From the NCBI GenBank assembly GCA_002070115.1, contig MWCO01000006.1:62001-126000 (forward strand): a DNA stretch of 64,000 nt. The letters run 5' to 3'. The notes under the pieces were generated by a model, which was not told where the DNA came from, ran no database searches, and saw only the letters and a list, made by a program, of their open reading frames with translations. Source of the stretch: Deltaproteobacteria bacterium ADurb.Bin207 (GTDB lineage Bacteria; Myxococcota_A; Polyangia; Polyangiales; Polyangiaceae). A program made the translations under genes and the position numbers. This document shows, one piece after another, positions 6,195 through 62,228 of the stretch (its first letter is position 1; each line of letters begins with the position of its first letter).

Positions 6195-8543
6195 GTGCAA
6201 GCTTTGCGAACGCGGTCGTTTTTCATTGCCATCGTAGCCCTGGGTTATGTGGTGTTCGCAGCGCTGCAATCCCGCGACGGCAGCGGAGCCGGATGGCTTG
6301 CCCTTCTGCTTTTTCCCTTCGCGCTCGCCGTAGTGTGGGTGAAAACCCAAGCGCCCACGCGCGGCGAGGATCCCATCGACCCGACCGTACGCTCGGCCAC
6401 GCGCGTCACCGCCGTGGGAACTGCGTTGCTCTTGTCTTCATGGACGGGTGAACCAGGGGTCGCCTCCTTGCTGACAGGAGCCAATGTCGGGACCGCTCTT
6501 GCCACCGTGGCGGCGCTTTTTTCCCTCGCCCGCATCTCGGGTCCGGGAGGATTGCTGCAACCGCCCGCCGCCTCAAAACGTCTCGATGCGACGTCGCTGG
6601 CTGCGATGGTATGGGGAACCGCGATCATGTTGCCTTTGGCGCGAGCGCTTGCGCCAGAGGCAACGACCATGCTCGATCCGTTGTCGGTCGATATTGCCAC
6701 GTTGGTGGCTTCCAGTGGAGCGCTTGGCCTGCTGATCGCCGCATCGTTTCGTGTGCGTGCGCTTCGACGTCTCGAGCTTGGCGTTTCCGACCGTGCCGGG
6801 GCCGCATTTGCCTTGTCGGTCGTTACCCTAGCCATAGCCATCCCTGCCTCACTGTTGCGGGTCGCGCCGCCGGATCGCGTCATGGCGGCCGCGGGCGTCA
6901 TTGCCGCGTGTTGCGTGCAGCTTGCCTGCGTCTCGCAGGAGCCCGGAAGCGTGGCCAAGACCATGCGGACGGCTTTGGGAATGGTTCTTCTCGGTGCTCC
7001 CGTGGGCTTGGCGGGCGTGGCCTTGAGTTTGCGCGCTCCCCAATCGACCGGACTGCTCATTTTGGTTGTCGGAGGCTTGTCGATCCTTGTGGGATTGGTG
7101 GCTCCAGCGCTGTCGAGACCGCTAGGACCGGCACGCTCCCGTTGGCTTCAGGCCATTCAAAAAGCCAATGAAGCGGCTTTGCATCCTGATCCGGACGTGG
7201 CCCTTCGAGACTCGCTCACCACCGTACGCTCCTTGTTGCCGGGGGACAGCGCATCGCCCACGATTTTTCAGGCCTCCCCACCGCAGATGCTCACGATCGA
7301 CCGGGCCGGTTATCTGCATACGCACGAAATCCAGGCTCCGATGACCTTGTATGACATTGCGCAAGCAGAGCCCGAGCGGGCGATTCGTACGGAAGTGCTT
7401 CGAGCGATGGAGGTGCGACGCGCCGAGCTTCGCCCCTTGGTCCAATGGATGGACGCAAGGGGAATGCTTAGTGTAACGCTCATCCGCGACGAGGATGGCC
7501 CGGTCGGCCTTCTCGGAATCCCACGCGGCAAGCGTCGGACCCCCATGAGTTTGGAAGAAGTTCGCGCCGTGCGGGTGCTGGCGGACCGCATCGGTGCCGT
7601 GCTTGGCGTTTCCTCGGCGCTCGCCCGATCTCGGCAACGGGAACTGGAACTGCGGCAACTGGCGGAACGACGGGCGGACGAGATCGATCGGCTACGGTTT
7701 CAATTGTCTGCGAAGAGCGGGCGAATGCGCGCCCATGCCGAACGGCTCGCCTTGCCTTTGCGCGCCACCACCTATAGCCCGGCGGCGGCCATGGCGCTCG
7801 AGCAGGTCCGACGACTGGGAGCGATGGACATTCCCGTGACGTTGCTGACTCCCCCCGGAGTCGATCCCATTGCCTGGGCCGCGGAAGCCCATCTGGCGAG
7901 TTCCCACGCATCCAGCCCTTTTGTGATTGTGTACGGTACCGACACTTCCGAACACGATATCGACCGCTGGCGAGCCGCCGACACTTCGCCTTTGTCTCTT
8001 GCGGATGGTGGAACCTTGTTCGTGATCGACATCGCCGCCCTTCCTCGAACCGTGCAAGACTACATCGCTTCTTGCCTGGCCGAGCGGATCGCACCAGGCC
8101 AAGTCACACCGCTGGATATCGTTCTCATGGTATCCGTTCCCGCAACCGCGGATGTGCTCGTCGCCGCGGCCAGACTCTCGTCCACACTGGCGGATTGGCT
8201 TGGAGACCGCGCCGTGCCGCTGCCGGAACTCGCCGCACGCCCCGAGGACCTGCGTGCGCTCGTGCTCGATCAACTCGCGCGGGCGGGTACACGTCTTCGC
8301 GGAGCCCCGCTTGGCATCGACGATCGCGCGCTCGCGCGATTGATGGAACACCAATGGCCCGGAAACGATGTCGAACTTGCCGACGTTCTGCTTCGCGCCA
8401 CCCTGGTAGCCCAGGAGAAGAGAGTGACGCTGGAGGATCTGCAAACTATTGGATTTATTATAGAATCTTCGAATGCGGAATCATCGGAGCCGCCGCCATC
8501 CCTCGCACCAACCATCCCCAAACCGCGTCGAAGACGCCATTGA
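6195..8543 (+). CDS. Multi-helix membrane protein with GAF-like and degenerate NtrC-type AAA+ domains
   Basis: A 782-residue protein with a GTG start. About eight to ten membrane helices (residues 8-308) precede a GAF-like region (about 330-475), a charged coiled coil (about 478-515) and a C-terminal region that follows the layout of sigma54-activator AAA+ domains. Recognisable pieces are SLADGGTLFVIDIAALP (601-617, Walker B region), LPELAARPEDLRAL (677-689) and WPGNDVELADVLLRA (721-735). The Walker A site is gone (LLTPPGVDP, 551-558, with no GxxGxGK), the DE of Walker B reads ID, no GAFTGA loop is present, and there is no HTH at the end. It should therefore not hydrolyse ATP or bind DNA. I infer a membrane-tethered signalling or scaffold role. 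The tail ends PKPRRRRH. Confidence 0.75.
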   Translation: MQALRTRSFFIAIVALGYVVFAALQSRDGSGAGWLALLLFPFALAVVWVKTQAPTRGEDPIDPTVRSATRVTAVGTALLLSSWTGEPGVASLLTGANVGTALATVAALFSLARISGPGGLLQPPAASKRLDATSLAAMVWGTAIMLPLARALAPEATTMLDPLSVDIATLVASSGALGLLIAASFRVRALRRLELGVSDRAGAAFALSVVTLAIAIPASLLRVAPPDRVMAAAGVIAACCVQLACVSQEPGSVAKTMRTALGMVLLGAPVGLAGVALSLRAPQSTGLLILVVGGLSILVGLVAPALSRPLGPARSRWLQAIQKANEAALHPDPDVALRDSLTTVRSLLPGDSASPTIFQASPPQMLTIDRAGYLHTHEIQAPMTLYDIAQAEPERAIRTEVLRAMEVRRAELRPLVQWMDARGMLSVTLIRDEDGPVGLLGIPRGKRRTPMSLEEVRAVRVLADRIGAVLGVSSALARSRQRELELRQLAERRADEIDRLRFQLSAKSGRMRAHAERLALPLRATTYSPAAAMALEQVRRLGAMDIPVTLLTPPGVDPIAWAAEAHLASSHASSPFVIVYGTDTSEHDIDRWRAADTSPLSLADGGTLFVIDIAALPRTVQDYIASCLAERIAPGQVTPLDIVLMVSVPATADVLVAAARLSSTLADWLGDRAVPLPELAARPEDLRALVLDQLARAGTRLRGAPLGIDDRALARLMEHQWPGNDVELADVLLRATLVAQEKRVTLEDLQTIGFIIESSNAESSEPPPSLAPTIPKPRRRRH

Positions 8544-8596: not shown

Positions 8597-10057
8597 TCAG
8601 CGTTGCTGCCTGGAAGACGCGATCGCTTTTTCGTACACCGTTTCATAGCCTTTCGCCGAACGAAACCAGGAAAAATCCTGTCTCATAGCCCGGCGACGCA
8701 TCGTTTCGATATGGGTTCGTCGCTCCACCCAGGTGGATACGGCCCAGGCGAGGGTGTTGAGAAGCGATGGGGGATTGAGGTCGTAGAGTTTGAATCCAGT
8801 TCCTTGCCCCGTCGCTTCGTCGTAGTTGTCCACGGAGTCCTCGAGGCCACCGGTGGCGCGAACGATCGGCAGGGTACCGTACCGCAAGCTATACATTTGG
8901 TTCAGCCCACAAGGTTCGTAGCGCGATGGCATGACGAAAAAGTCGCAGCCGGCTTCGATGCGGTGGGCGAGGGCCGGATCGAATCCAAGCCATGCATGAA
9001 ATCGGTCAGGGCGCTGTCGTGAGGCCATTTCGAAAAAAGCTTCCGCGGGTGCATCGCCGGTGCCCAGCAACACCATCTGCACGTCCATGGATAGAAAGCG
9101 TCCAAGGGCATGAGCCAGCACGTCCAACCCCTTTTGATGGGTCAGACGTGTGACGAGTCCGAACAAGGGAACCTCCGGTCGTACGGCAAAACCTGCCTCT
9201 CGTTGCAAGACGGACTTGCAGATTGCCTTGCCCGACAGGTTATCCGCATCATAGGGCGATGGAATCCACGGGTCGATGGACGGGTTCCATGCCTTGTCAT
9301 CTATCCCGTTCAGGATACCCAACAGATCGGATGCGCGGGACCGCAACACACCATCGAGTCCGCATCCGAAAGCGGGGTGTTGGATCTCTTTCGCATACGT
9401 TGGGCTCACGGTCGTGAGCATGGAAGCGCCAAGGATGCCGCCTTTGAGCAGGTTGATCGCTCCGAAGTGCTCGAGGCTGTCGGCGCTGAGTTCTCGGGAA
9501 GGCAAACCGGTCAAGGCAAAATCATGCAACGGCGCGATGCCCTGGTATCCGACATTGTGCAAGGTAAATACCGTCGGCACAGGTTGGGATAAGTGCTTCG
9601 CAAACAGAATGGAAAGTGCCGTCGGCCAATCATTGGCATGAAGGACGTGAGGCGCGAAGCCGACATGGCGCGGCAGGTCGCAAGCGGCTCGACTCAACCA
9701 AGCGAAACGCAAAAGATTATCCTCGAAAGCGCCGCCTTTGGGTCCATACACACCCGATCGAGCATATAAATCCGGCTGATCGATCAAGTACAGAGGCACT
9801 CGTTCCGGCAGTTCCCCTTGCCAAACGCGAGCATCGAATACCGTATCGGCCAATCCAATTCGCAAAGACACCCCAATAGGATGCAAAGCGTCTCGATCCA
9901 CTTCGCCATACAAAGGCATCACGACCCGTATGTCGTAGCCCGCTCGACGAAGGGCAGCGGGCAAGGCCGAAGCGACATCTCCGAGCCCTCCTACTTGGGC
10001 GAAGGGCGTACATTCGGACGTTACGTACAAGATATTACGTTGGCTCATCGCGATCAT
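8597..10057 (-). CDS. glgA: Glycogen synthase (ADP-glucose type, GT5)
   Basis: A 486-residue GT5 glycogen/starch synthase that extends alpha-1,4-glucan from a nucleotide sugar. The N-terminal glucan and nucleotide loop reads QVGGLGDV (21-28), where many family members have KVGGLGDV. The C-terminal GT-B half has the donor-binding region FFVMPSRYEPCGLNQMYSLRYG followed by ATGGLEDSV. A second ATG at 10048 is an equally good start. It lies 70 bases after the GH57 branching enzyme in the same direction, so elongation and branching are probably co-expressed. No ADP-glucose pyrophosphorylase or phosphorylase gene is in the window. Confidence 0.93.
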   Translation of the reverse strand: MIAMSQRNILYVTSECTPFAQVGGLGDVASALPAALRRAGYDIRVVMPLYGEVDRDALHPIGVSLRIGLADTVFDARVWQGELPERVPLYLIDQPDLYARSGVYGPKGGAFEDNLLRFAWLSRAACDLPRHVGFAPHVLHANDWPTALSILFAKHLSQPVPTVFTLHNVGYQGIAPLHDFALTGLPSRELSADSLEHFGAINLLKGGILGASMLTTVSPTYAKEIQHPAFGCGLDGVLRSRASDLLGILNGIDDKAWNPSIDPWIPSPYDADNLSGKAICKSVLQREAGFAVRPEVPLFGLVTRLTHQKGLDVLAHALGRFLSMDVQMVLLGTGDAPAEAFFEMASRQRPDRFHAWLGFDPALAHRIEAGCDFFVMPSRYEPCGLNQMYSLRYGTLPIVRATGGLEDSVDNYDEATGQGTGFKLYDLNPPSLLNTLAWAVSTWVERRTHIETMRRRAMRQDFSWFRSAKGYETVYEKAIASSRQQR

Positions 10058-10127: not shown

Positions 10128-11711
10128 TCACGTTGCGAACACGCGGTAATCGAGGTTGGGGAAGAGATTGTCGCGACGTTCCACCTCAGCGAGATAATCT
10201 TCATCGATATCGCCATCTTCGAGGTTTTGGGTGAGTCGGTGGAATCGGTTGATATGGTCATTGGTACGCTGCGTGGCGTAAGCGACGGTGGTGCCACTTT
10301 TCATGATGAAAGCCCAATCGCTGGCTTGTGCGAGCATGAGTTCACGAGCGGCTTGATTGAGGACACGACGTTGCAAGTCGTCGGCCTGGGAGAAACGGCG
10401 GGCGAGTTCGACCATGCGTTCGCCCATTTTGTGAAGATGGCGATAAATCCACGCATTGGATTGGTTGCACCAATACTCGCCGTAGCCCCCCGCACCCCAG
10501 GAAGACATCGCTGGCGTTGCGACCTGATTGGTGGGATGCGCGTGCAAATAAGCACTGGGTGTGATGGGTGCGATCATGCCCTGATCGGTGTGGATTTTTC
10601 GCAACAGCATTTCGAGGAAGATGGGACCTTCGTACCACCAATGGCCAAATAGCTCGGCGTCATAAGGAGAAACGATGATGGGAGGCCGGTCCATCTGAGG
10701 ACGTAACGCGCGCACTTGTTGCTCTCGCTGTTCGAGAAAGTGCTGCGCATGCGCGTTGGCTCGCTGCCATGCCACATGCGGAACATACGGGTTTTTATTG
10801 TGCAAAGCGCCGTGGGTAATGGCGTGATACTTGACCCCCGTGAACGTCCGTATGCCATCGGGATGGATGTAGGGTCGCACGTATTCAATCGGCAGATCGA
10901 AACCGATGTCTCGATAAAAGTCTCGATAGTCCGGGTCACCCGGATACCCTTCCTTCGAACTCCACACCTGCCGCGAACTCGGAACGTCGCGACCAAAAGC
11001 AGCCACACCCGTGGGACAATAGATCGGGGCGTGAACGCCGTAGACCGGACGGCGATCGGCGAAGAGCAGTCCATGGGTATCCAGGAAAAAATAGCGGATA
11101 TTTTCTTCTCGCAGCAGTTCGTCCAAACCCGGCACGTATCCGCATTCCCCAAGCCACATTCCTTGCGTCCTGCGCCCAAAAGCACGTTCATATACATCCG
11201 CCGCCACATGCACCTGGGCTCGAATCGCCGCCCAATTTCGATCCATGAAAGGAATGAACGGATGGGTCGCCGTACACGTGATGACCTCCAGCTTCCCCGC
11301 ATCCTGCAACCCACGAAGCGGATGCACGAGATCGCCATCATAGCGTCGCCAATAGTCTCGGATTCGCACGAATCGATCCCGATACATCTGCGCAAGTCCG
11401 TGGAAACGACCGTCGTTACGGGTTCGATCCACCTCACTTTCCGCAAGCTCCACAAGCTTGTCGATCTTCGTCGCATACCGTTCTTTGAGAAGATCATCGG
11501 TGAGCATGCTCAACAGCGTGGGGCTCATCGAAAGGGTCAGACGATAGTCCACGTCATCGCGCAGCAGCCGTTCGAAAACGAGCAGCAACGGAACATACGT
11601 TTCCGTGATGGCCTCGAACAGCCATTCTTCTTCCATATAGGAAGGGGCCTCGGGATGACGCACGAACGGCAAGTGCGCGTGCAACACAAGCGCCAAATAC
11701 CCGTGTGCCAT
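10128..11711 (-). CDS. GH57-family 1,4-alpha-glucan branching enzyme
   Basis: A 527-residue GH57 enzyme matching the branching-enzyme group. It has HAH near the start (H12 and H14 from an upstream GTG), the nucleophile segment MWLGECGY with E190, and the acid segment SPYDAELFGHWW with D352. These positions fit the family closely (E183 and D354 in the well-studied archaeal enzyme, from memory). It transfers glucan pieces to make alpha-1,6 branches. I chose the ATG at 11711, which shares one base with the stop of the DUF4912 gene (TGATG). The three glycogen genes form an operon. Confidence 0.92.
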   Translation of the reverse strand: MAHGYLALVLHAHLPFVRHPEAPSYMEEEWLFEAITETYVPLLLVFERLLRDDVDYRLTLSMSPTLLSMLTDDLLKERYATKIDKLVELAESEVDRTRNDGRFHGLAQMYRDRFVRIRDYWRRYDGDLVHPLRGLQDAGKLEVITCTATHPFIPFMDRNWAAIRAQVHVAADVYERAFGRRTQGMWLGECGYVPGLDELLREENIRYFFLDTHGLLFADRRPVYGVHAPIYCPTGVAAFGRDVPSSRQVWSSKEGYPGDPDYRDFYRDIGFDLPIEYVRPYIHPDGIRTFTGVKYHAITHGALHNKNPYVPHVAWQRANAHAQHFLEQREQQVRALRPQMDRPPIIVSPYDAELFGHWWYEGPIFLEMLLRKIHTDQGMIAPITPSAYLHAHPTNQVATPAMSSWGAGGYGEYWCNQSNAWIYRHLHKMGERMVELARRFSQADDLQRRVLNQAARELMLAQASDWAFIMKSGTTVAYATQRTNDHINRFHRLTQNLEDGDIDEDYLAEVERRDNLFPNLDYRVFAT

Positions 11712-13636
11712 CACCCACCTCCCTTGGACGATTCGTTTTCGTCGTCATCATCAAGCGTGGCTGGGTAGGTAGCCTGCGCCACCCGTTCACTGGCACCCAC
11801 AGCCGTCCAGCTTCGATCGTCGAAGGCAAGCGCGTGGATTCCCAGTTCTGCCATCGAGACAGAATCGGAAATCGTATCTTGGGACGGTGGATGGGGCATG
11901 AGAGCAGATCCCAACGCTGTCTGTTCGCTTGCACCGGCAAAAGGAAGGGTAGGCTTGATGAATCGGGTCGATTCCCTCATGCCCAGAAGTTCACTGGCGC
12001 CGATCGAGCCACCGAGGTCGACCCACCATTTTCGTTTCTCTGACTCGCTCGCGCCCCCATAGTCATGAAGGAACGATTCGGATGCTTGCGCGAAGACTTC
12101 GGAAGCCTGCCATGACGACTCGCTGGCACCCATCCGCAGTTGCTCGCTGGCACCCATCCGCAGTTGCTCGCTGGCCCCGATAAAAACCCGTTCGCTGCCC
12201 TGTTCCAGAACCCATTCGGAAGCTCCCAGCCCGGCGAATTGCCATTCCGTAACACGCTCACTGGCACCCGCCAGACGCAGTTCACTAGCGCCAAGCCAGA
12301 TCCATTCCGAGCCTCCCAGCGCCAATTGCTCCTCGATGGCGTAGGAAATCCGTTCTGAACCTCCCAGTATCCAACGTTCGCTCGCGCCTTGCTCCACGTC
12401 TTGCCGCATCTCGGAAGCTCCAGTCCACGTACGCTCACGAACGAATCCTTCGTGCCAAATACGCTCCACGATGCTTTCCCAACGCTCCACCACGGATTCG
12501 ATCGTTTGCGCTCGATGCAGCCTCCAAGTTCCAAGAACCCGGCGAAAAGACGTTCCAAACGAGGCTCCGTGAATGACGATCTCCCAGGATCCAGCAGATT
12601 CCTTTTCGAAGCCACTATCCATATACGTATAGTCGACCCCGAGGAAACGAACGAGGACACGTCCGGGAGCCGCGCTATCTCCGGGATAGGGCGCCCAATC
12701 CCACGTGGTGAGCACTTGTTCACGCGACCAGGCCACGTTGTGAAGCGGACGAATCCACTCGAAAGCCCGCTCATCGCCTTGCCACTCTGTCCGCCAACTT
12801 TCGGTCATCCAGGGAATCGATGAACGCGGCGGCGTTATCTCGAATCGTCGAGACGCGCGCGAAAACCAACGAAATACTTTCCTCTCCGACCAGGTTCTCG
12901 ACTGTATTTCTTGGCGCTCCACATGCCGCTCCATGATCACACGGGTGGCGCCGGAAGACCGCGGATATGCGTCGGAATACGGAGGCTGAAGCGGGACGGG
13001 AATGTCCGGGGCCGGGCCCGAATAGCGCGATACATAGGCAGCGGAGGCCGGCAACGACGCCTGTTTCGATGGCTCGTCTTCGACCGTAAGCCACTCCACG
13101 GACACTTCTTCGACAGGACGCTTACGCGGGAAATCCGTACGACCCGAGCGAGCCATGGGCTGAAAATCACCCAGCCGCGACTTGATGCCCACCTCGACAT
13201 GACAACTCGAGCGAGGCTTACCCACATGCACGAACCAATCGCGAGTCGTACGCTCGATCGCAATATCGAAATAACTCAACGCATTGCAGCCATCGAAATC
13301 CCGCCCCGATGTGTCGTACACCCGCAAACAACACCACGTATCGTGGGCCCCACGACCAAGACGCTGCCGCGCCTGGTCGATCGCATCATCGGTGACTTCC
13401 CAGTAGACGTAGAGCCAGTCCGGATCGCGCGCCATCGCGGTGATGCGGTTTTCGCCATATCCCCAGGGAATGTCCTCGGATGGAAACCAACCATTGCCCA
13501 CACCCAGATCGAACTTGGCCTTGCCCGACGCGTGCGCACCACGATCCACATCATGATCCCGAGCCGGATGCGTACCGTTGTGCGAGGGCTCTTGACCCAC
13601 ACGTAAACCGTTAGGCTTGTTCCTGGTCATGGTCAC
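11711..13636 (-). CDS. DUF4912 protein with C-terminal GASE repeats
   Basis: A 641-residue protein. Residues about 48-185 form a DUF4912 domain (GWFPSEDIPWGYGENRITAM, then DPDWLYVYWEV). A Pro/Ser-rich linker and a Trp/Glu/Arg-rich middle (about 228-400) follow. Residues 406-617 carry 12 exact GASE motifs and five variants (GGSE, QASE, GSE), most often 8 residues apart. The tail is acidic (LDDDDENESSKGGG). There is no signal peptide or membrane helix. It is the first gene of the glycogen operon and is fused by stop/start overlap to the branching enzyme, so it probably acts on or around glycogen. That is inference from context. An ATG at 13630 is an alternative start. Confidence 0.85.
   Translation of the reverse strand: MTMTRNKPNGLRVGQEPSHNGTHPARDHDVDRGAHASGKAKFDLGVGNGWFPSEDIPWGYGENRITAMARDPDWLYVYWEVTDDAIDQARQRLGRGAHDTWCCLRVYDTSGRDFDGCNALSYFDIAIERTTRDWFVHVGKPRSSCHVEVGIKSRLGDFQPMARSGRTDFPRKRPVEEVSVEWLTVEDEPSKQASLPASAAYVSRYSGPAPDIPVPLQPPYSDAYPRSSGATRVIMERHVERQEIQSRTWSERKVFRWFSRASRRFEITPPRSSIPWMTESWRTEWQGDERAFEWIRPLHNVAWSREQVLTTWDWAPYPGDSAAPGRVLVRFLGVDYTYMDSGFEKESAGSWEIVIHGASFGTSFRRVLGTWRLHRAQTIESVVERWESIVERIWHEGFVRERTWTGASEMRQDVEQGASERWILGGSERISYAIEEQLALGGSEWIWLGASELRLAGASERVTEWQFAGLGASEWVLEQGSERVFIGASEQLRMGASEQLRMGASESSWQASEVFAQASESFLHDYGGASESEKRKWWVDLGGSIGASELLGMRESTRFIKPTLPFAGASEQTALGSALMPHPPSQDTISDSVSMAELGIHALAFDDRSWTAVGASERVAQATYPATLDDDDENESSKGGG
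11786..12421 (-). repeat. GASE repeat-coding region
   Basis: Codons for residues 406-617 of the DUF4912 protein. GASE starts at residues 406, 417, 449, 457, 471, 487, 495, 503, 528, 546, 568 and 614. Variants start at 425, 441, 479, 510 and 517. From 417 to 517 the steps are 8, 16, 8, 8, 14, 8, 8, 8, 8, 7 and 7, so the basic unit is an octad of the form G-A-S-E-x-hydrophobic-x-x. Confidence 0.9.
12119..12166 (-). repeat. Perfect 24-bp tandem repeat inside the GASE region
   Basis: Two identical 24-base units (12119-12142 and 12143-12166) each encode one octad, GASEQLRM. Identity at the DNA level, while the other octads differ, points to a recent duplication of one repeat unit. Confidence 0.9.
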
Positions 13637-13848: not shown

Positions 13849-16101
13849 TCACTTGACACTCGGGCACGCCACTCCCCCCGCATGGGCGTCGTTGTTATCC
13901 TCCACGCATTCCATCATGCCCGCGGCCGCCGTGCTGCCATCCACCACCACATAAAACTGGAAGGGAGGCACATGATTCGCAGCTTCGAAAAGCACGCTGA
14001 CCACCTCGGATTGTCCAGGGAGCAAACTCTTGGTCGTGTATCCCTCCCCCACAAACACGCCTGACGCATCCGCGCCCAAGAAAAACTTCGCCTGCACGCC
14101 AGCCGGCACACCCAAGGAACCCGCGTTTTTTACCCGCGCCCGCAACTCCAGCCCCAGGGGGCACGAGGCCGACGACACCTCCAAATCCACCCGCAGATCC
14201 GGAGCATTGAATACACCAGCCCCCTGCGTGGACACACGATAGTTGTTGAACCCTACCGGCGGTTTCCAACTTGCCGGCTCGGGCTTCGGAAGCACGCCAT
14301 CGGCAAGAATATTCGTAATATGATAGGCATGCTGATTCCAGATTCGCCGCGTTCGCACCCATTTGTCGTTCGCATCCCCATAGACAAACACCCCGCGACG
14401 AGCTTTTTCGCTCATCCCATACCCTGGGCATGTTCCCGGACCATGATTCCGATCATTGGAAACCACCACGATCTCCGTCCGATTATCCCCATCCACATCC
14501 ACGATCACCGGATACTCGTGGATGGTCGCTGAACTCGATGCGGTTTCAAACAGCACGTCTCCGTTTTTCCCGCTGTAAACCCGCATATAGCACTCATCCC
14601 CATACACCACTTCCGCCGCCCCATCCCCCTCGAAGTCAAACACCGTGGAACCCGTCACATTCGACGACAAGTCTTGGGTCTCTTTCGACCATTTCACCGA
14701 TAGCGAAGGGGAAGGCTGGGATTCATACTCGAAAACGGCGTAAGCAGTGCCGTTGGCGGAGGCGATTTCCATTCTCCCGTCCCCATCGAAGTCAGCCACC
14801 GTGGGCGGACCACCCCGCCCGTTGCCAGGCATTTTTACCGTCGCCAGCATCTTTCCCGTGGCCGCATCGTGAACGCGTACCTGCCCTTGAGAAATCACGA
14901 TGAGTTCCGGCTTACCATCCTCATCGAGATCCGAAATCGCAGGATACCCATCGGACATCCCGTTTTCCCAGATCACGTCGCCCGTCACCGACCACGCCGC
15001 CGCACCCGTCACCACGTCCTGGTTTCCATCCCCATCCACATCGGCAATGATGCTCACCGCCCCATAATTCGCATCATTCGCCCCCGCTCGACCACGCCCT
15101 TGCCCCGATCGAACTCGCCCCTGCGCATCCAACACAACCCCACCCATCACGATCTCCGGCGAACCATCCCCATCCATATGAGCAATCGCCGTCGTTACGC
15201 TGTTCATCGCCTCGGTATACGGGGTCTGACCATCCGCCAATGTCGATCGCCAATACAACGATCCATCGGCTCGAAACGCAATGGCTCCGCCTCCCATTTT
15301 CGGTGCCACGATCTCCACCACCCCATCGCCATCCAAATCCGCCGCCGCTGGCGTTCCCCGAGGATTGACTTCATTGCCCGCAGCATACACGTCCGCCGAC
15401 GCATCCCATTTTTCGACCCCTGTCTTGCCATCGAGCGCTCGTAAGTACCCAGGGTTGTTGGATTCATACGTCTCGCTCGTGACGATGACCACATCCGGAA
15501 CGTTGTCTTGATCCAGATCCACAACCACAGGCATGTTGATGACTTGGTTGGCCGAAGGTTGGATCGTCGACCCGGTCCACGACCACTTCACGACCGGATT
15601 GAACGGCAAGGTAGGGGGACGGTATTCACATAAATCCTCGCCTGAAGGCTGAGGGAGACACCGACCCAGGGTAGGCTCACAAAACTCCCCCTCGTCACAA
15701 TCGTATGAGTCCTTGCACGACACACCGGGCGTCACACATTCATCCGAAAGACAGACGTCGCCTGCAGTACAGCAAGTCGTTGCGTCGACACCGCATCGAA
15801 TCCCCGAATCACAGGCAGGCATGCACGCGCCGTCCACACACTCTTGCCCCACCTCGCAGCAAACACCGTTCGTGCCGCAAAGAACGTTGGAAGGACATTC
15901 TTCTTCGAGGAATCCCCCGGTACCGCCCGCTCCTCCCATTCCTCCCGTCACGGCCCCCGCTCCCGTCCCGCCCTGCGCGGCCTCAACACCCCCGTCTGTC
16001 GTGGTGCCTCCTACTCCACCATTATCTTGTGCGCTGTCTTCACTGCCAGAACACGCCACCACCAACCCTACAGGAATGCAAAGCCAACCGATTTTTCGCA
16101 T
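13849..16101 (-). CDS. Cell-surface lipoprotein with FG-GAP/VCBS repeats and a CARDB-like domain
   Basis: A 750-residue protein with a lipoprotein signal (MRKIGWLCIPVGLVVAC, lipid Cys about 17) and a Gly/Thr/Ala-rich spacer. A Cys-rich segment follows (about 70-155) with CCEVGQEC and CCTAGDVC type pairs. Next comes a long series of calcium-loop-like repeats (DLDQDNVPDVVIV, DLDGDGVVEIVAP, DVDGDGNQDVVTG, DFDGDGRMEIASA, DVDGDNRTEIVVV), as in FG-GAP beta-propellers. The last part (about 635-735) resembles a CARDB adhesion domain. It probably sits on the outer membrane surface and binds calcium and a partner or glycan. It is divergent from the CapA-like gene. Confidence 0.85.
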   Translation of the reverse strand: MRKIGWLCIPVGLVVACSGSEDSAQDNGGVGGTTTDGGVEAAQGGTGAGAVTGGMGGAGGTGGFLEEECPSNVLCGTNGVCCEVGQECVDGACMPACDSGIRCGVDATTCCTAGDVCLSDECVTPGVSCKDSYDCDEGEFCEPTLGRCLPQPSGEDLCEYRPPTLPFNPVVKWSWTGSTIQPSANQVINMPVVVDLDQDNVPDVVIVTSETYESNNPGYLRALDGKTGVEKWDASADVYAAGNEVNPRGTPAAADLDGDGVVEIVAPKMGGGAIAFRADGSLYWRSTLADGQTPYTEAMNSVTTAIAHMDGDGSPEIVMGGVVLDAQGRVRSGQGRGRAGANDANYGAVSIIADVDGDGNQDVVTGAAAWSVTGDVIWENGMSDGYPAISDLDEDGKPELIVISQGQVRVHDAATGKMLATVKMPGNGRGGPPTVADFDGDGRMEIASANGTAYAVFEYESQPSPSLSVKWSKETQDLSSNVTGSTVFDFEGDGAAEVVYGDECYMRVYSGKNGDVLFETASSSATIHEYPVIVDVDGDNRTEIVVVSNDRNHGPGTCPGYGMSEKARRGVFVYGDANDKWVRTRRIWNQHAYHITNILADGVLPKPEPASWKPPVGFNNYRVSTQGAGVFNAPDLRVDLEVSSASCPLGLELRARVKNAGSLGVPAGVQAKFFLGADASGVFVGEGYTTKSLLPGQSEVVSVLFEAANHVPPFQFYVVVDGSTAAAGMMECVEDNNDAHAGGVACPSVK

Positions 16102-60500: not shown

Positions 60501-62228
60501 GCCACCGGTCCGCTTCCCAGGCCCGTCATCGAACGAATCTTCCGCCAAAACTACGGGGCCTTTCGCATGTGTTACGAAACGGGGCTCCAATCCAATCCCA
60601 ACCTCCGTGGACGCATCAACCTACGTTTCGACATTGGCGCCGACGGCTCCCTATCCAACATAAGGGATGCGGATACGGGATTTCCCGATGCTGGTGTCGT
60701 TTCCTGCGTATTGCGAGCGTGTGAGCGACTGTCGTTTCCTGCCTCTTCGGGACCGGTTGCCGCGACGTATACCATCACTTTCTCTCCCCCCGAAGGTTTG
60801 GTAAAACCATCGCAACCCCTGAATATCCATCAGTTTATTGTCAACCTCAACCTCCCCCACCAGGTAGTTCCTTGCGCGCAAGGGTCCAAGCTCCCCCTGG
60901 CGGATCGTGTGGCCCTATGGCGTGAACGGCTCGGAAACGCAAGGGGCGAGCCGCAGGCCGTCGCTTCCGTCTACCACCAAGCCATCAATCAGTGTGAAGC
61001 ATCCGCGTGGCCGGAACGAAGCCGGCTTCTGTCCATGATGCTCGATGCCTTGCCTACCGTGGAAAAACGAGTTGCGCTCTGGAGGCTCATGCAAGCCCAA
61101 CGAAGCGTGGCGGATTCACTTTACCGCGGCATCTTGTCACGCATCCGCAAAACCGACGAGATGCGACAATTGCATCAAGCGCTTGGCCTGCGCTCCGTCG
61201 ACCCTGGATTGCTCGAGGAATTGATGAAAAAAGAGCCCAATCCGGCGGCTCGGGCCGTCATGCTTCGAGACCTTCGCCTTCAATGGCCAGATGATTCAAC
61301 CCTTTCGCTCGCACTTCTTCACGCCCTGGAAGATGCCAACGACGATAGCGCGGCTCGTGTTTTGGGCCGCCAACTGCGCAACCGCCCTGATGCAGATGCC
61401 CACGTGCTCACCGAAGTGGGCGAACTTTACTTGCGGCTTGCCAAGCGATCAGCGTCGAAAGAGCTGGCATCGGAAGACGAGGCGGAAGCACGAAGAGCTT
61501 TCGGCGAAATCGTCGAATATTCACCCGACGAGCCTGTGGCAAGACGCAGGCTGGGGGATCTGCTTCGGAGCCATGGTTGGTTTGCGGAAGCGGCGCGGCA
61601 ATACGAAACCCTGGCCCGGCTCGCGCCGGACGAAACCGGGGTCTTTTTGCTCCAAGCCTCGGCGGCCCAGGGGCTTGGCAAGCTCGACGAAGCCGTACGA
61701 TGGGCTGAAAAAGCGAGTAACGACGGGGCTCCGGGGGGTGATGCACAAGGGCTGGCCCGCACCGCGCGCTCTCTTGCCGCGGTTTTCCTTGCCTGGGGAC
61801 GAGTGCAAGCCGCAGCGGAAAACCGGAATGACGAATTCGAATTGCTTCGACAACGCACCATGCGGCTGCTTTCCCAAGACGATCGTTCCGAAAACACCGC
61901 GCGCGCCGTGCTGGTATGGTCCCATCCCGAACTGCATCCCACGCTGTGGAGCAACGCTCTCGGCTCGATGATGCCAGCGCCCGAAGGCGACATGACCTTG
62001 GGCCTTTCCCAGGTCATCCTGCCGCGAAGAGATGGAATGGTACTAGAAATTCGTATTGAAAAACGCGATCTTACAAACATCGCCCGCCTCGGGGCCCAGG
62101 CTCTTCTCACCGTTATCTTCCAAGAGGGCAAAGCCGACGAAAAAGTCGTTCGGGTGCCCGTCGTCTTCAACCCCGAAGGTCCTGCCGCACTCCGCTTCCG
62201 CGTCGACGGAATGGAGGTGAAGCCATGA
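57594..62228 (+). CDS. Giant lipoprotein: FecR-like, VIT, VWA, AgmX/PglI-type and TPR domains
   Basis: A 1544-residue protein with GGAGG ahead of the ATG. Lipoprotein signal (lipid Cys 23, LIIGSC), FecR-like domain (about 36-185), VIT domain (about 220-356) and VWA domain (about 471-645). The VWA metal site reads D479-S-S-A-G483 where DxSxS is usual, so the last Ser is lost. Later come a Pro/Ser/Gly linker, an AgmX/PglI C-terminal-type domain (about 975-1065, MCYETGLQSNPNLRGRINLRFDIGADG) and helical TPR-like repeats (about 1080-1440). A final beta-rich part ends the protein. The AgmX/PglI name comes from Myxococcus motility proteins. It overlaps the next gene by 4 bases. Confidence 0.88.
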   Translation: MPSCSRIVHSVLVVFLLLIIGSCGPKQSLAPQSQTFGEIRAIRGAITVAPAGASSRSILPRERLTDGSTIEVAPNALAWLRRDGGSTVLLRGPATVVFGVDDIHVKKGQVFIDSPDDQVTTITSAVGSLYLSRVRASLEIGEETEAYVLSGEVRTPDGIRAGPGERMSLARDRKPLVQPALAWVDWTGGLATTDRGAEPAPFGVGTVGARLPGEQGQPRTPLAIRRMEVRVSVEGDLAITEVDQMFFNGASQTVEGVYTFRVPIGASLTRFGVDREGVIVWGRVKEKMAAAAQYASHVYEGSKEDPALLEWDSPGVYRTRLYPIAAGATRRVVVRYTQWLGRTGSRGERRLYTFPMAAEGAEETLPHIEFFGATFDLGRAGAKEVRTGMQGVIEKDKVVIRAHDLVPRADLAVELFDDGAKGSQAYLAPHTVDFELVAPTDRAEARKRAIEEASYLAIPIRASDIPKQEGGLDLVMVVDSSAGMDNASMVVTRAAVHALLSHLGEQDRALLVAGDTTLRPVVRGWDKLRPVTEAVRKDASIGLATLERGGATDLGAMIAQAAASLDPARRGVLIYIGDGKPTVGELALVDLKERLAKLPRPVRTFGLGVGQDADMSIIEGLVEAGFAERLDDAADAARTALRLLEEAERPAWLGVNVDLGPAVERLVPRELKTLIADESVIVVGRLTGDPPKTIRITTPAGDNTLAISPQRLADFGDLQARWSTGRLRQLLADGVGRAALVDLGVRGGIITPYTSLYVPTTQEMSSDELEQLRKNQRNLDKNPRGALLPTEPESKYAWLNSLLLAGCQSKSEKTATMEAAPLAEVAPGDIPETVKLEQQQDYAEKKAEEGSGRRKSSTFAARGPTDSSGETAKVSALSEKDRGGAPSPPPQAQPAPLSTTTAEAVAGSAIQTGSDNDDKTADSMLGIMNIGAGGGGKGEGIGQGFGSGHGRLGGSHQSQSGKVKMDVADATGPLPRPVIERIFRQNYGAFRMCYETGLQSNPNLRGRINLRFDIGADGSLSNIRDADTGFPDAGVVSCVLRACERLSFPASSGPVAATYTITFSPPEGLVKPSQPLNIHQFIVNLNLPHQVVPCAQGSKLPLADRVALWRERLGNARGEPQAVASVYHQAINQCEASAWPERSRLLSMMLDALPTVEKRVALWRLMQAQRSVADSLYRGILSRIRKTDEMRQLHQALGLRSVDPGLLEELMKKEPNPAARAVMLRDLRLQWPDDSTLSLALLHALEDANDDSAARVLGRQLRNRPDADAHVLTEVGELYLRLAKRSASKELASEDEAEARRAFGEIVEYSPDEPVARRRLGDLLRSHGWFAEAARQYETLARLAPDETGVFLLQASAAQGLGKLDEAVRWAEKASNDGAPGGDAQGLARTARSLAAVFLAWGRVQAAAENRNDEFELLRQRTMRLLSQDDRSENTARAVLVWSHPELHPTLWSNALGSMMPAPEGDMTLGLSQVILPRRDGMVLEIRIEKRDLTNIARLGAQALLTVIFQEGKADEKVVRVPVVFNPEGPAALRFRVDGMEVKP

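Follow-up and report, generated by a model that had tools for sequence, protein, structure and literature searches.

Two described protein systems and one widespread gene pair offer the closest comparisons for the locus reported here. Ice nucleation proteins carry a repeat that forms a beta-solenoid with a 16-residue coil, AGYGSTQTAGEESSLT (PMC9418140), and the sheets of plant LESV and ESV1 expose aromatic and acidic strips (PMC10219597). Across the phylum Myxococcota, genes for proteins with the domain DUF4912 commonly lie directly before a gene for a GH57 branching enzyme. DUF4912 has no function assigned in Pfam, and a literature search on it returned only a passing mention, in a study of cotton callus. 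Beyond Myxococcota, the domain gives matches in Thermotoga maritima and Synechococcus elongatus. Here we describe a DUF4912 protein of such a pair that ends in an array of octads, G-[AG]-S-E-x-x-hydrophobic-x (the GASE array), encoded in a window of 64,000 nucleotides (positions 62,001 to 126,000 of contig MWCO01000006.1) from Deltaproteobacteria bacterium ADurb.Bin207. The new part is the undescribed repeat domain on the DUF4912 partner of GH57, the pairing itself being widespread. As the array is kept in all close relatives, it provides a handle on the function of a domain that adjoins branching enzymes throughout the phylum.

Like the ice nucleation repeat, the array is built of octads in which Ser recurs at every eighth residue, and in some members two octads may pair into a unit of 16 residues. 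However, the ice nucleation repeat reads AGYGSTxT and extends over about 65 coils, whereas the array reads GASExxhx, counts 5–25 octads, has hexad steps intermixed and sits in a glycogen operon. It gave no profile match to the ice nucleation family in Pfam and was rejected as a member, although the ice nucleation solenoid may be regarded as its nearest analogue in shape. RTX, hexapeptide and pentapeptide solenoids were also rejected, given no Pfam match and a dominant GASE step of 8. In proposed role, the nearest analogue would be plant LESV/ESV1 (PMC10219597), likewise non-enzymatic, with Trp and acidic residues, and proposed to organise alpha-glucan; here the motif differs, LESV/ESV1 are described without DUF4912, and the array was compared with them by description, from sequence alone. 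The other Myxococcota DUF4912–GH57 loci share the domain and mostly its position directly upstream of GH57, but most of these relatives lack octads and finish in a short tail or, as in L093, in a weakly matching Glucodextran_B-like domain.

Glycogen operon and layout of the octad protein

On the minus strand, which the initial annotation left unstated, the genes run from the DUF4912 octad gene through the GH57 gene to glgA (Table 1), and the stop of the DUF4912 gene overlaps the start of the GH57 gene. The overlap with a GH57 branching enzyme and the glycogen synthase thereafter, both proposed in the initial annotation, are thereby confirmed by coordinates and by the models PF03065, PF09210 and TIGR02095. 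NCBIfam branching-enzyme models match the GH57 protein as well, but below their cut-off. The octad gene starts with GTG or, equally possibly, with an ATG two codons downstream, and its protein has no second copy elsewhere in its own genome. Flanking the operon are a regulator-like gene, convergent to glgA, in which the ATPase part looks degenerate, and, upstream, a gene for an FG-GAP repeat lipoprotein-like product, for which no match was seen beside the octad gene of the relatives inspected.

Table 1. Features of the glycogen operon and its flanks, in window coordinates
Feature	Position	Strand	Basis
Regulator-like protein	6195..8543	+	weak sigma-54 interaction domain, AAA lid match
Glycogen synthase GlgA, ADP-glucose type	8597..10057	-	TIGR02095, 522 bits, over cut-off
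GH57 glycogen branching enzyme	10128..11714	-	PF03065 (Glyco_hydro_57) and PF09210 (BE_C)
DUF4912 protein gene with GASE octad array	11711..13636	-	ORF and translation, 641 aa
GASE octad array, residues 406-617	11786..12421	-	12 GASE, 2 GGSE and variants
Sole DNA-level tandem in the gene, 24 bp x 2.4, GASEQLRM units	12119..12175	-	Tandem Repeats Finder
Pro-rich linker and Trp-rich middle domain, residues 179-405	12422..13102	-	kept in octad-clade homologues
DUF4912 domain, residues 60-178	13103..13459	-	Pfam PF16258, E 2.1e-27
FG-GAP repeat lipoprotein-like gene	13849..16101	-	

The DUF4912 domain scores 96.2 bits with PF16258, above the curated cut-off of 29.4. The linker and middle domain have no Pfam match, and the middle domain ends in a conserved W...VLxxW block. 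It lies between DUF4912 and the array, and the order of DUF4912, middle region and repeat that had been read from the letters stands. Pfam gave nothing besides DUF4912 for the window protein up to an E value of 1, and neither NCBIfam nor PADLOC matched the octad protein. Up to an E value of 10, no match was obtained in a PDB sequence search with the full protein and the array profile, or in Pfam with three octad arrays of relatives. There is no Pfam or NCBIfam model for the array and no paper was found that describes it, in agreement with the earlier statement that the repeat is undescribed.

Motif count, selection and periodicity

Numbered from the GTG, the first GASE stands at residue 406. 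The window array comprises 14 G[AG]SE motifs, besides the close variants QGSE and QASE, with steps of 8 residues most frequent and others of 7, 11, 14, 16 and more. Counting reproduced the initial observation of 12 exact GASE and close variants over residues 406–617 with a main step of 8. The array is regular to about residue 510 and degenerate beyond, where steps of 7, 11, 18, 22 and 46 occur. In 20,000 shuffles of the 225-residue region, a mean of 0.05 and a maximum of 2 GASE were found. Among members the octad consensus is G at position 1 (96%), A or G at 2, S at 3 (99%), E at 4 (92%), any residue at 5 and 6, a hydrophobic residue or Ala at 7 (about 90%) and any residue at 8, and the number of motif matches in complete arrays ranges between about 5 (L096) and 25, usually 9–18.

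In the window, the motif Ser is encoded by 10 AGY and 4 TCN codons, both classes being present in most other members, the 14 motifs are spelled by 13 distinct 12-mers, and exact DNA repetition in the gene is limited to the one tandem of Table 1. Hence, the protein sequence has been selected rather than recently copied.

Across a larger protein set, 8 is by far the commonest step, and 6, 7 and 16 come next. Steps between motifs after the first were even in 97 cases and odd in 10. When step 8 is left out, the split is 30 to 10, with a p value of 0.001 that overstates the significance, the proteins being related. Octad similarity was higher at lag 2 than at lag 1, both over all proteins (2.46 versus -0.16 BLOSUM units, 0 of 2,000 shuffles) and with one representative per group (1.99 versus 0.23, 48 of 3,000 shuffles). 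This 16-residue alternation shows plainly in family f20 and also in L050 and L054. Neither the window protein nor three relatives (L049, L051 and L052) have it, and a universal 16-residue period was therefore rejected. At synonymous sites, the two lags have the same identity (0.630 versus 0.631), with no lag-2 excess, which rules out recent 48-nt duplication as the source of the period.

Spread of the array and linkage to GH57

Octad arrays are found at the same place in at least 25 genomes from two families of one Myxococcota class, of which eight belong to the family of the window, the window genome included, and 17 to a second family, a number reached with a profile of DUF4912 and the middle domain. 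The repeat is thus kept in homologues with the same operon, a point that the initial annotation had left to be decided. In the window and 23 homologous loci, the GH57 gene lies directly downstream on the same strand, its start at an offset of -4 to +6 nt relative to the stop of the DUF4912 gene in 24 of 24 readable junctions, and glgA comes next in 21 of these loci. Genomes of genus g31 have no glgA beside the pair in the 1.7 to 5.2 kb visible. In one locus of this genus (L191, 1192–4791), the branching enzyme is flanked by genes that, by the look of their sequence, are phosphoglucomutase-like and GH13/CBM48-like.

With the GH57 protein as query against 318 genomes of the class, the array was present in all 24 genomes that have a GH57 at least 62% identical and a readable upstream gene; G108, for which the GH57 also reaches 62% but the contig ends upstream, was left out of this count. 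No DUF4912 was detected adjoining the next GH57, at 60% identity (G551), and GH57 proteins at 57% identity or less are partnered by repeat-less DUF4912 proteins, where examined. As all testable close GH57 relatives have the array, it arose and stays with one GH57 clade, and the co-occurrence search suggested earlier thus finds it strictly with that clade and usually also with glgA. Homologues without the repeat are common, as had been considered, but they are not otherwise identical to the octad loci, given that repeat-less pairs occur only at greater distance. The octad proteins group together in the DUF4912 domain tree as a single clade (support 100/98), which includes L095, a gene cut by the contig end with its array on another contig.

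Searching genomes of the order (184) and of the phylum (379) for three consecutive octads revealed no diverged octads outside the octad protein family, and the plasmid collection gave no match for the feature. The idea that unrelated proteins contain the same octads was rejected, as the outside matches traced to low-complexity sequence or to DNA tandems, exact or nearly so, and in some cases to the wrong frame; all six outside loci that were translated were of the exact-tandem or low-complexity kind.

A second DUF4912 lineage has no GH57 neighbour and is referred to here as the Rho_N/TPR type, after weak N-terminal matches to Rho_N and TPR in one protein, L120. At their C-termini, its proteins carry between one and three G[AGS]S[DE] motifs, frequently 8 residues apart; the motif is present in 11 of 12 proteins, with 18 motifs observed against 0.44 expected from shuffles. 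Terminal motifs are carried by L057, L059, L060, L116, L120, L121, L123, L124, L127 and L129, and an example with two motifs exactly 8 apart is GGASELPRGGASEQVRPG. Judging from these motifs, G[AGS]S[DE] may be an old partner of DUF4912 that was amplified next to GH57, possibly from an ancestral short octad, while the two lineages lie so far apart in the tree that an independent origin of the motif is equally possible.

Other C-termini were seen as well. L092 (ORF ending at 1515) is a DUF4912 protein of another family, also before GH57, with TPGS[VI] every 5 residues in the slot of the octads. In L093, residues 373–427 weakly match Glucodextran_B (E 0.0002, below the cut-off), and the ends of L094 and L177 look similar. 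The end of L093 indicates that the C-terminal slot of DUF4912 holds different modules in different clades.

Candidate structure and role of the array

AlphaFold with three-sequence input gave a mean pLDDT of 30 for the full window protein and 28 for the most regular array (L013), without confident strands in either array, which says little about the array since the DUF4912 domain itself reached only about 50–60. Foldseek on the low-confidence full-protein model returned mostly weak fibronectin-III-like matches (best E 0.04), presumably from the DUF4912 part. In a charge-hydropathy plot, eight of nine arrays are folded-like, with 24–30% large hydrophobics, the exception being a remnant of 27 residues, truncated at a contig gap. 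The predominance of even steps, together with the 16-residue period seen in one family, speaks for beta structure, and two octads per structural unit would fit part of the family.

Apart from the Rho_N/TPR lineage, DUF4912 genes in the phylum as a rule immediately precede GH57, and we therefore read the octad protein as a branching accessory; since repeat-less DUF4912 proteins hold the same position, it is the base module that appears tied to branching. Our preferred reading, which we put forward tentatively and short of calling it probable, is that the protein partners the GH57 branching enzyme without catalytic activity of its own, with a beta-structured array as a multivalent surface for glucan or enzymes. 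The two genes are probably translationally coupled, and DUF4912 would be the ancestral module travelling with GH57, whose C-terminus would have expanded to the octad array in one clade. Most likely the array would fold as a beta-structured rod or sheet, each octad contributing one short strand and a turn at the Gly, and octads pairing into units in one family at least. Such an array could repeatedly display the side chains of Glu and of aromatic residues or Arg, and its surface would receive alpha-glucan chains or the two enzymes, whereby synthesis and branching would be kept at the growing particle. Weighing against this reading are the low pLDDT of both models, the lack of the alternation in the window protein, L049, L051 and L052, the uneven aromatic content among members and the g31 loci with no adjoining glgA. 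That the octads constitute a new beta-solenoid or beta-sheet class, templating alpha-glucan or anchoring branching enzyme and synthase on the particle in analogy to LESV/ESV1, is doubtful. If the scaffold reading were true, it would mean a new repeat fold, a dedicated non-enzymatic way of shaping glycogen and a tool for alpha-glucan engineering.

The array could instead be a disordered, multivalent low-complexity tail with GASE serving as the short linear motif that a partner recognises, whether DUF4912 of the same protein, GH57 or some other protein, and with copy number tuning avidity or condensation around glycogen. We regard this as quite possible, given that copy number ranges between about 5 and 25, that steps of 6, 7, 8 and 9 coexist, that pLDDT is low and that the lineage without a GH57 neighbour bears one to three motifs in 11 of 12 proteins. 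However, the arrays are rich in W, L, M and V, poor in Pro and folded-like in charge and hydropathy, their alternation and even spacing call for a structural explanation, and the paired motifs of the Rho_N/TPR lineage are often exactly 8 apart too.

An alpha-glucan-binding surface, which like the Trp-rich LESV/ESV1 sheets would align chains and alter polymer packing, would agree with the Trp-rich middle domain, the Trp/Glu-rich octads of several members, the aromatic and acidic strips of those sheets (PMC10219597) and the glycogen operon, but the aromatics are confined to octad positions 5–7, with a content that is high in some members but low in others such as L054, and in family f20 positions 5 and 6 are mostly Arg. 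This unevenness makes a fixed aromatic strip for glucan binding doubtful, and we consider such a surface distinctly unlikely. It is highly improbable that the array is a passenger, a slippage-born repeat merely tolerated in a dispensable tail: although its length varies, the window tail degenerates after residue 510 and more distant DUF4912 proteins manage without it, Ser and Glu are nearly invariant despite many synonymous changes, every testable clade member has the array, and the octad matches outside the family are of the DNA-tandem and low-complexity kind.

Following the array, the last 20 residues in family f20 (L166–L175) form a common tail around YPSPDS...K, and a YP or YS stretch related to this tail is visible in the window protein and in L049.
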